DNA of 42,085 nucleotides from a bacterium (GTDB lineage: Bacteria; Actinomycetota; UBA4738; HRBIN12). Made by a program: the position numbers and the translations under genes. Shown here one piece after another: positions 11,596 through 16,215 of this stretch (the stretch's first letter is position 1; the number at the start of each line of letters is the position of its first letter). The notes under the pieces are model-generated. The model saw nothing but the letters and a program-made list of their open reading frames with translations. It was not told the origin of the DNA and made no database searches. The DNA is taken from positions 1 to 42,085 of the forward strand of contig JAHEXX010000004.1 in the NCBI GenBank assembly GCA_023251895.1, written 5' to 3'.

Positions 11596-11705
11596 GAGCC
11601 GATTCTGACATTCACGTGCAGTGGTCCACGGGCGACCGCTCCTACCGCTATGACGATGGCTTCTGGAACCGGGTCCTATCCACGGTCGCTCCGTATACTG
11701 CTTCC

Positions 11706-11803
11706 TAGGAGTACCGGGGAGCTCGGGGCAACCGGGCTGAGAGGCCGCCTTCGATGCGGCGGCGACCCGAAGGAACCTGAACCGGGTAATGCCGGCGGAG
11801 GGA
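11706..11803 (+). promoter_or_regulatory. TPP riboswitch (THI element)
   Basis: Conserved core: ...GGGCAACCGGGCTGAGAGGCC...GGCGACCCGAAGGAACCTGAACCGGGTAATGCCGGCGGAGGGA, immediately upstream of thiG. A -10-like TATACT lies at 11693-11698. Confidence 0.92.
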
Positions 11804-11809
11804 GTGTCG

Positions 11810-12595
11810 GTGGCATCGCACGATCCCCTGGTCATCGCGGGGCGTGAGTTCGCGTCCCGGCTCATCGTGGGCACGGGCAAATTCGGCTCGTTCGAAGTCA
11901 TGCGCGACGCCCTGGAGGCCAGCCGCACCGAGATCGTCACCGTGGCCCTGCGGCGGGTGGACCTGGAGGCCACCGGCGGGCCGGACATCCTGGAGTTCAT
12001 CGATCCAGACCGCTACCTGCTGCTGCCCAACACCTCCGGTGCGATGGACGCCGAGGAGGCCGTGCGGATCGCGAACCTGGCCCGGGCGGCCGGGATGCCT
12101 GCCTGGGTCAAGCTGGAGGTCACCCCGGAACCCCGGTACCTGCTGCCCGACCCGGTGGAGACGCTGAAAGCGGCCGAGGCCCTGGTGAAGGGGGGCTTCA
12201 CCGTGCTGCCGTACATCAACGCCGACCCGGTGCTGGCGAAGCGCCTTGAGGAGGTCGGCTGCGCCACGGTCATGCCGCTCGGCTCCTGGATCGGGTCGAA
12301 CAAGGGCATCCGAACCTGCGAAGCGGTCCAGATCATCGTGGAGCAGGCCACGGTGCCGGTGGTGGTGGACGCTGGCCTGGGCGCGCCGTCTCACGCCGCC
12401 GAGGCCATGGAGATGGGGGTCGACGCCGTGCTGGTGAACACCGCGATCGCCATCGCCGGGGACCCGGTGGAGATGGCTGGGGCGTTCCGGCTGGGGGTGG
12501 AGGCGGGCCGTCGGGCGTTCCTGGCGGGCAAGCCGGCCGAACGTGACGTTGCCGAGGCGTCGAGCCCGCTGACCGGGTTCCTAGAGGGAACGTGA
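11810..12595 (+). CDS. thiG: Thiazole synthase
   Basis: [31 protein letters not shown]...[35 protein letters not shown] 11810 is preferred over ATG 11789, which lies inside the riboswitch. Confidence 0.93.
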
Positions 12596-13778: not shown

Positions 13779-13979
13779 ATGCGGGTCGTGGCGAACGGCA
13801 AGCCGCGCGAAGTGGGGCCCGGCGCGACGGTGGAGGACCTGATCCGCTTCGTCGGCCTGGACCCTCAGTACGTGATCGTGGAACACAATGGGGAAGCGTT
13901 GGAGCGCAAGCGGTACGGCGAGGCTCGCCTGACCGAGGGCGACCGGCTCGAGTTAGTGCGGGCGGTGGCCGGTGGGTGA
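13779..13979 (+). CDS. thiS: Sulfur carrier protein ThiS
   Basis: [66 protein letters not shown], 66 aa with terminal GG. Confidence 0.92.
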
Positions 13980-14613
13980 CCTCGGCGATCGACGTCGGGA
14001 ACGACTCGCACGGTCTCGGTTGTACGTCGTGACCGACGCCCGGCGGCGCCGGGGCGACCTGAAGGACTTCCTCGAGTCGATCCTGTCGGCCGGCGTCGAC
14101 ATCGTGCAGCTCCGGGAGAAGGACGCCGAAGCCGGCGACCTGCTCCGGTGGGGCGAGGTGTTCGGGGAGGCGGCGGAACGGCACGGCGCGCTGTTCACGG
14201 TCAACGACCGGCCCGACGTCGCGCTCGCCCTCGAGGCCGACGGCGTTCACGTCGGGCAGAACGACCTGCCCGCGGCGTGGGTCCGCCGGATCCTGGGGCC
14301 CGACGCGATCGTCGGCGTCTCCTGCCACTCCGTCCAGGACCACGCGAACGCCCCGCCCGAGGCCGATTACTTGACCGCCGGCCCCGTGTGGTCGACACCG
14401 ACCAAACCGGGCCGCCCGAGGACGGGCCTCGAGCTGGTTCGCATCGCGGCGGCCAACGTGACGAACCCCTGGTTCGCCATCGGGGGCATCAACGAGGCGA
14501 ACGTGCGCGAGGTGGTCGAGGCCGGCGCTACCCGGATCGTGGTCGTCAGAGCAGTCACCGAGGCCGATGACCCGCCCGCCGCGGTGAAGGCGCTCCTGGC
14601 GTCCCTACCTTAG
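13972..14613 (+). CDS. thiE: Thiamine-phosphate synthase
   Basis: [70 protein letters not shown] start overlaps thiS. Confidence 0.93.
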
Positions 14614-14641: not shown

Positions 14642-15523
14642 TCAGATGGACCAGCGAGCCCTTCTCGGATCCCACCGGCCCTCGGCATGTCCAGCGAGTG
14701 CCGGCTCAAGGAGCGCCGCCGCTTCCGCGTGCCCTGCACGAACATCGCCATCGATCCCGACCTCCCCGGCTGCCTTACGGTAGGGCACCGACCAGTCCGC
14801 CGGAGGGGACGGGAAACCGGAGGGGAGCGGTTGCTGCCCGCGAGCTCTGAAGGTGACCTCCAGCGCCTCGCGGAGGCGGCCAGCATCGAGCCCGATCTCT
14901 TGAGCCACGACCACGAGATCGATCAGGTCCTTGACCCGGCTGCTCGATTCACCCCTGGCGTAGATGCGCGTGTAGGCGTGAACCTTCTCCGCCACCTGCT
15001 GCTCGATGGGGATCGCCGGAACCACGGCACTCTCGATCCCGGCGAAGGAGAGGAGGTCGGGCCCCTTCACGGGCTCCGGCCGCCAGCCGAGGGGATCCGA
15101 GAAGCCCACGTCCACGAAGACCTCCTCGAACAGCCGGCCTCCGAGTTCGGCCCGTTCCAGGAACCGCACGCTGGCACCCCCGATCTCCCTGGTTGGTCCG
15201 GCCCTCTCCACGGAGAACACGAAGAAGTCGCCCAGGTCGACGGTTTGGGCTGCCAGGAGATCCTCGGTCGCGGCCTCCTCGTCGTCACGGCGGACGAGGT
15301 CCATGTCCTTGGTGGCTCGTCCCCGGCCCGCCAAACGGAAGTCGAGCGCCAGCGCACCCTTCAGCACCCACCGGTCGGGGGCTGCCATAACGAGACGGGC
15401 GAGCAGTCGGTCGAAGGTCACCGTCTTGCGCAGCCGGATCAGGGACACGCCTGTGGTCCGGGAGCGGTGGAGCAATCGCTGTTCCAGCGCCTGCCGGAAC
15501 ACCCCCGCCGACTCGTACCTCAC
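14642..15523 (-). CDS. abiEii: AbiEii-type nucleotidyltransferase toxin (type IV TA)
   Basis: WVLKGALALDFRLAGRGRATKDMDLV (NTase motif) and EKVHAYTRIYARGESSSRVKDLIDL; ATGA overlap with the upstream antitoxin. Confidence 0.85.
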   Translation of the reverse strand: MRYESAGVFRQALEQRLLHRSRTTGVSLIRLRKTVTFDRLLARLVMAAPDRWVLKGALALDFRLAGRGRATKDMDLVRRDDEEAATEDLLAAQTVDLGDFFVFSVERAGPTREIGGASVRFLERAELGGRLFEEVFVDVGFSDPLGWRPEPVKGPDLLSFAGIESAVVPAIPIEQQVAEKVHAYTRIYARGESSSRVKDLIDLVVVAQEIGLDAGRLREALEVTFRARGQQPLPSGFPSPPADWSVPYRKAAGEVGIDGDVRAGHAEAAALLEPALAGHAEGRWDPRRARWSI

Positions 15524-16140
15524 GTTTCCTGGCGGTCCTGGATCGCGCGGCGGATGAGCTGTTCCACCCGACCCCCTCGCTGTCGGCTGGCGGCAAGAAG
15601 TTGGCGCTTCGTCGCCATCCCCCGCTCGACTGCCTCCCTCGCGGCGGCCACGACCTGATCCGGAGCCGTTCCCGCCTCGGCGGTATCGAGGATCGAGCGG
15701 ACCGGGGAGGTCATTCGGATCCCGTCTCGGATCACGACGTCGGCCTGGGTCAACTCCCTGGTGGTGGTATGAACCCGCACACCGCCGGCCGCCGGACGGT
15801 ATCGCTTGGAGCGAGGCACGGTGACGTGGACCGCCTCAGGGACGACGTCGGAGAGCCCGAGGAGCTCCAGGGCGCTCTCGTGGGAAACCACAGCCTCGTC
15901 CCGGCCCACCGCGAGCCTGGCGGCGAGGACGCCCTCCCGGGGCGAGGCCGGATACTGGCGGAACCGGTAGAGGCCCCGACGGACCCGGATGAACCGGCCC
16001 CCCTCGCGCGCATGGTGGCCGAGGAGTGCGCTGCTGAACCCGCACCGGCGGGCTTGGGCGGCGGTGAAGTAGCCTCCCTGCTCCGAGGCGAAGAGGAAGA
16101 GCCGCTCGTGTTGCGGCTCTCCGGCCTTTGTGTCATGCAT
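15520..16140 (-). CDS. abiEi: AbiEi-type antitoxin / transcriptional regulator
   Basis: N-terminal winged HTH (GGYFTAAQARRCGFSSALLGHHAREGGRFIRVRRGLYRF), SHESALELLGLSDVVPEAVHVTVPRSKR. Confidence 0.85.
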   Translation of the reverse strand: MHDTKAGEPQHERLFLFASEQGGYFTAAQARRCGFSSALLGHHAREGGRFIRVRRGLYRFRQYPASPREGVLAARLAVGRDEAVVSHESALELLGLSDVVPEAVHVTVPRSKRYRPAAGGVRVHTTTRELTQADVVIRDGIRMTSPVRSILDTAEAGTAPDQVVAAAREAVERGMATKRQLLAASRQRGGRVEQLIRRAIQDRQET

Positions 16141-16175
16141 AGGTCAAAGGATACTTGACCTTCTCATGACATCAA
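16131..16175 (-). promoter_or_regulatory. abiE promoter with nested palindromic operator (TGTCATG-N4-GGTCAA-N7-TTGACC-N4-CATGACA, 16131-16171)
   Basis: Perfect 7-bp outer and 6-bp inner arms about one centre. Minus strand: -35 TTGATG (16170-16175), 16-nt spacer, -10 TATCCT (16148-16153), then 7 nt to the abiEi ATG (16138-16140). Confidence 0.75.
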
Positions 16176-16215
16176 GGGCCTTGTACCAATGAAGCTGGAA
16201 TAGGAGGCGCCCCCC

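Follow-up and report, generated by a model that had tools for sequence, protein, structure and literature searches.

The window, that is, the whole stretch of 42,085 nucleotides analysed here, carries on its minus strand two adjoining genes of a predicted AbiE system. AbiEi matches the Pfam families AbiEi_4 (31.7 bits, cut-off 25) and AbiEi_1 (27.1 bits, cut-off 22.2) and the PADLOC AbiEi model (1.3e-61). Its predicted fold, of moderate confidence (mean pLDDT 66), finds its best Foldseek matches in the AbiEi of S. agalactiae (6y8q, E 1.1e-6) and in Rv2827c of M. tuberculosis (1zel). The identity proposed for this gene in the initial annotation is thus borne out by all three kinds of match. AbiEii is recognised by Pfam (AbiEii, 2.9e-25) and PADLOC (8.3e-84), and its gene lies directly downstream on the same strand, the GTG start overlapping the abiEi stop by four bases (GTGA). 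By sequence and model, the locus therefore presents the components of a type IV toxin-antitoxin system of the AbiE kind, namely an AbiEi with an N-terminal winged helix-turn-helix and a C-terminal domain, followed by an adjoining AbiEii. An AbiEii-like gene is also present in 56 of 71 homologue loci. Upstream, a cation-efflux gene of the same strand ends 75 bp before the dyad described below. Elsewhere in the window there is a TPP riboswitch (11705-11820, plus strand; Rfam RF00059, 55 bits) and, beyond it, a thiamine-phosphate synthase (thiE-like) gene at 13972-14613. The features of the abiE locus are the following:

14642-15523, minus strand: abiEii, predicted nucleotidyltransferase toxin, 293 aa, GTG start (Pfam, PADLOC)
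15520-16140, minus strand: abiEi, predicted antitoxin that would repress its own operon, 206 aa, with ATG 16140 as the one possible start (Pfam, PADLOC, fold match)
16125-16177: whole putative operator, a pair of 23-bp inverted repeats with 7 bp between them and 78% complementarity
16131-16137: outer arm TGTCATG, distal copy, in abiEi codons 2-4 (CATGACA on the minus strand), with a GTC/GAC core kept in homologues
16142-16147: inner arm GGTCAA, between the -10 and the ATG on the minus strand, holding an in-frame TGA stop
16148-16153, minus strand: -10 element TATCCT (TAnnnT), at the dyad centre, 7 nt before the ATG; TAnnnT at -13 to -8 in 25 of 58 homologues
16155-16160: inner arm TTGACC, directly upstream of the -10 on the minus strand
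16165-16171: outer arm CATGACA, overlapping the edge of the -35 on the minus strand
16170-16175, minus strand: possible -35 TTGATG, 16-nt spacer, weak, absent as a conserved element in the nearest relative

Direct reading of the sequence places the two-tier dyad TGTCATG-N4-GGTCAA-N7-TTGACC-N4-CATGACA at 16131-16171, with its centre at 16151. All 13 of the 13 arm pairs are Watson-Crick, exactly as claimed when the dyad was first described, and the 4-bp gaps (CATA and TTCT) show no complementarity. The conserved core amounts to 17 bp per side (7+4+6). In dinucleotide shuffles the pattern was never found, even with three mismatches allowed. Within the window this is the sole place with 13/13 pairs in the same geometry (the next best, 11/13, occurs at four places), and it stays unique there as a perfect 6+7 two-tier dyad when spacer and gap are left free. 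A single copy of the left-plus-centre part is present in the genome of 2.49 Mb. Across 397 genomes of the phylum, the spaced pattern GTCA/GTCA/TGAC/TGAC was found in four, and in two of those four it is located at the start of abiEi. A second short dyad, AGAGCCGC-N7-GCGGCTCT, lies at 16098-16120 of the window, within early abiEi codons.

On the minus strand, the order of elements is TTGATG (16175-16170), 16 nt, TATCCT (16153-16148), 7 nt (TTGACCT) and the ATG (16140-16138). The hexamers and spacings of the promoter that had been proposed earlier are therefore as described, but the match to the sigma-70 consensus is weak (4/6 and 4/6, under the cut of the promoter scanner) and the nearest relative does not keep the -35. 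Two codons ahead of ATG 16140, the inner arm TTGACC supplies an in-frame TGA stop, and abiEi offers no further in-frame start until residue 78, beyond the DNA-binding domain. Since no other start exists in between, ATG 16140 is forced, which makes the gene very probably leaderless, with a transcript that would begin at or next to this ATG. A true start codon farther downstream, one of the findings that would have spoken against a leaderless gene, is very unlikely for the same reason. A Shine-Dalgarno sequence was also looked for; none was found at working distance before abiEi, and the best match (AGAAGG, 5/6) is located at -24, which is too distant. Together with the TAnnnT 7 nt upstream, these results support the leaderless start of the initial annotation.

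A TAnnnT some 12 bp ahead of the start codon has been published as a mark of leaderless genes (PMC3160421). The 58 homologues offer 111 candidate starts, of which 26 have TAnnnT at -13, in comparison with 0-7 at the other offsets shown. In 764 kb sampled from the 2.49-Mb genome of the organism itself, TAnnnT is most frequent at -16 to -12 ahead of ATG codons, with 4-10 occurrences vs 1.0 per offset. The gene resembles the leaderless genes of published surveys (PMC3160421; the -10 motif of Deinococcus-Thermus, PMC12340547) in having TAnnnT 7 nt before the ATG and no Shine-Dalgarno sequence. Those surveys deal with leaderless genes in general, whereas the present locus has a putative operator within its start.

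Homologues were retrieved by protein searches at about 60-70 loci, in the phylum of the window, in Chloroflexi and in Armatimonadetes. The test set comprised 25 of 58 homologues, which were picked by protein similarity and by TAnnnT at -13 to -8 only, and not by the dyad (hereafter start-anchored homologues); the remaining 33 have no start with TAnnnT at -13. With the centre fixed at ATG-11, a mean of 8.96 out of 13 positions was paired in the 25 homologues, vs 2.2-4.0 at centres shifted by 1-8. At least 10 of the 13 pairs were present in 16 of the 25 at the true centre, and in none at any shift. The observed pairing (0.689) also exceeds that of column shuffles (0.439 +/- 0.021, maximum 0.520). 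This comparison of the same promoter in relatives had been proposed at the outset; with about 58 homologues from three phyla, it supports a functional role for the core of the dyad.

The arm sequences vary between homologues, with both sides changing together. In the closest relative (L005/L037, 65%) the same dyad is present with one mismatch. More divergent forms are TGTCATT..TATCAA..TTGATG..AATGACA in L046 (62%), TGTCACG..CCTCAA..TTGAGG..CGTGACA in L053 and TGTCCGA..TGAGGG..CCCTCA..TCTGACA in L006. Placed on the protein tree, 24 arm changes are both-sided and lead from one Watson-Crick pair to another, vs 0-3 when the arm is slid by 1-4. Kinship is not the explanation of this covariation, because the slid control retains the relatedness. 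The dyad is real and evolutionarily conserved. The outer GTC/GAC core is almost invariant across the homologues, and the inner arm is variable.

The right outer arm falls within abiEi codons 2-4, so that conserved coding sequence, or else a chance palindrome, has to be considered. However, the non-coding left arm changes together with the coding right arm, and in L053 and L087 a perfect dyad is kept although all of it precedes the start codon. Covariation and these two loci rule this explanation out at the sequence level, and the probability left to it is negligible. In L048, L087 and L053 the likely start codon is shifted downstream of a perfect or near-perfect dyad, which remains on the -10.

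Even homologues do not all share this layout: of 68 loci, about half lack a significant dyad with the window's geometry, and some of these bear other palindromes farther upstream. At greater distance (AbiEi homologues of about 35-39% identity), the fixed-geometry search mostly fails and other palindromes are found instead. For instance, L012, L013, L015 and L027 have other strong upstream palindromes, some of them in two sets; these are of the type ACTAAAG/CTTTAGT, or TGTCAAAATATT in L027. Two abiEi copies near each other on one contig were found twice, in G1017:C122 (L089 and L095) and in G479:C106. A scan of viral contigs found no AbiEi relatives. The homologues L078 and L081 carry in-frame stops and appear to be decaying copies.

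As RNA, the same dyad would form a strong hairpin. Transcripts reading through from the cation-efflux gene could fold the dyad so that the start codon of abiEi is hidden; the sense-strand fold reaches -40.2 kcal/mol (z -6.5), and no terminator was found in the 75 bp that separate the dyad from the end of this upstream same-strand gene. Strong folding of the RNA is, however, expected of any perfect DNA dyad, and a transcript that starts without a leader at the local promoter would not contain the left half. Among the mismatches, G-U is not significantly more frequent than A-C (11 vs 5, p 0.21; 16 vs 8, p 0.15). The central TAnnnT is kept as a promoter element, for which a hairpin has no need, and neither a terminator nor an Rfam element was found at the site of the dyad. 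An RNA element of this kind is decidedly improbable.

The initial annotation had proposed a concentric four-half-site operator, which can be taken as four equivalent GTCA half-sites bound by two nested dimers or by a tetramer. GTCA is indeed repeated at a spacing of 11 bp on each side in the window, as well as in L037 and L059 and nearly so in L046 and L052. In the 17 dyad-bearing start-anchored homologues, though, the outer GTCA matches the inner positions at a mean of 1.35 out of 4 (chance about 1), and most have 0-1 matches. Inner and outer arm are unlike in most homologues, and the inner one varies against a core that stays nearly invariant, so each side of the dyad is better taken as a single composite site than as a pair of equivalent half-sites. 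The AbiEi of S. agalactiae likewise places two monomers on two 23-bp repeats (PMC7319586). Four equivalent half-sites are thus unsupported and improbable, and the arrangement fits two composite repeats.

That the dyad is the operator of AbiEi itself, through which AbiEi would repress its own leaderless abiEi-abiEii operon, is in our judgement highly likely. Inverted repeats overlap the abiEi promoter, with arms that span from the edge of the -35 to codons 2-4; the operator-like dyad over both promoter and start codon, as first suggested, is supported in this respect. As AbiEi is assigned to the dyad by reasoning from the sequence, the site could instead serve a different, trans-acting regulator. 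Against this, the genome has the dyad at the abiEi start and nowhere else, and the dyad sequence diverges along with AbiEi across phyla, which is not expected for a regulator that the host also uses on other genes. A foreign regulator is accordingly a highly improbable owner of the site, and neither it nor the RNA hairpin nor the four half-sites is favoured over an AbiEi operator.

From the sequence we infer AbiEi as the binder, its stoichiometry, the position of the transcription start and repression, as follows. Each composite half (TGTCATGNNNNGGTCAA or its inverted counterpart) would be bound by one of two AbiEi monomers, probably through the N-terminal winged-helix domain. Centred on the -10, the operator would let bound AbiEi block RNA polymerase from the edge of the -35 through the -10 to about +10, with a coverage of about -31 to +10. 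A fall in the level of AbiEi would then open the promoter. As transcription would begin at the ATG or right beside it, the operator would cover the first four codons of abiEi too; an effect of bound AbiEi on translation is moot, since bound DNA would yield no transcript. With the outer GTC/GAC core near-constant and the inner arm variable, the inner arm probably decides which AbiEi reads which operator. Divergence of the operator was compared with that of the protein by partial Mantel tests (partial r 0.42 for the C-terminal domain, 0.26 for the DNA-binding domain). The link with the C-terminal domain is no weaker than that with the DNA-binding domain, and the divergence therefore follows phylogeny. 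Operator divergence was consequently dropped as a proof of reading by the N-terminal domain, as the test does not discriminate this from phylogeny.

In S. agalactiae, AbiEi represses its promoter by binding, as monomers, to two 23-bp inverted repeats (IR1 and IR2) over the -35 and -10 (PMC3985639, PMC7319586). This type IV AbiE system shares with the window an AbiEi-AbiEii operon and a single pair of inverted repeats of about 23 bp over the promoter, and in a relative from S. equinus the outer arms begin at about the same distance from the centre (offset 14). The repeats are separated by 3 bp in S. agalactiae vs 7 bp in the window. The S. agalactiae transcript starts 26 bp before the ATG and has a ribosome-binding site, whereas abiEi of the window is predicted to be leaderless. 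The centre of the repeat pair is just upstream of the -10 in S. agalactiae; in the window it is on the -10 and the repeats run into codons 2-4. These differences, in repeat spacing, in centring on the -10 and in reach into codons 2-4, go together with the missing leader.

At the Rv2827c-Rv2826c promoter of M. tuberculosis, an AbiEi homologue also binds 23-bp inverted repeats over its own promoter (PMC7319586). Unlike the window, this promoter has four repeats in -1 to -131, with 13 bp within a pair, none in the coding region, and negative cooperativity. The 23-bp arms of the window, at 78% complementarity, are 7 bp apart in contrast to the 3 or 13 bp published, and for this reason we speak of a variant. 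Repeat spacing is descriptive and not strictly defining, as the two known AbiEi cases differ from each other. The window most likely holds a leaderless form of the operator by which AbiEi is known to repress itself. In mycobacterial toxin-antitoxin systems, operators are often located over the -10. The operator of MazE6 (PMC9477884), for instance, contains and is centred on TAnnnT, but it is an 18-bp site of another antitoxin family and not of AbiEi. The layout, which had been regarded as unusual, is less so in that it recurs in at least two phyla and that operators on the -10 are common in mycobacterial toxin-antitoxin systems.

In homologues where the dyad overlaps the start, the protein begins with MxD, the GAC being that of the outer arm. 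The four start-anchored homologues without an MxD start also have no GTC/GAC outer arm there. The N-terminal MxD residues are thus probably fixed by the DNA operator rather than by protein function. We only tentatively propose a distinct AbiE class in at least two phyla, in which operator, -10 and first codons would form one leaderless unit, the operator would dictate MxD and the inner arm would act as a specificity code against cross-regulation.

The family-wide covariation adds to the two AbiEi promoters characterised in detail (PMC3985639, PMC7319586). It gives a rule for AbiEi operators, that is, a GTC core at offset 17-19, a variable inner arm at 4-9, the centre on the -10 and the start at +11, which may be used to predict binding sites and to find abiE promoters. 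The neighbouring abiEi copies of G1017:C122 and G479:C106 would be useful for testing operator orthogonality, and the way in which AbiE specificity diversifies becomes testable. The same applies to whether one protein, lying across promoter and start codon, can shut a leaderless toxin-antitoxin operon in which promoter, operator and first codons are packed into about 40 bases.
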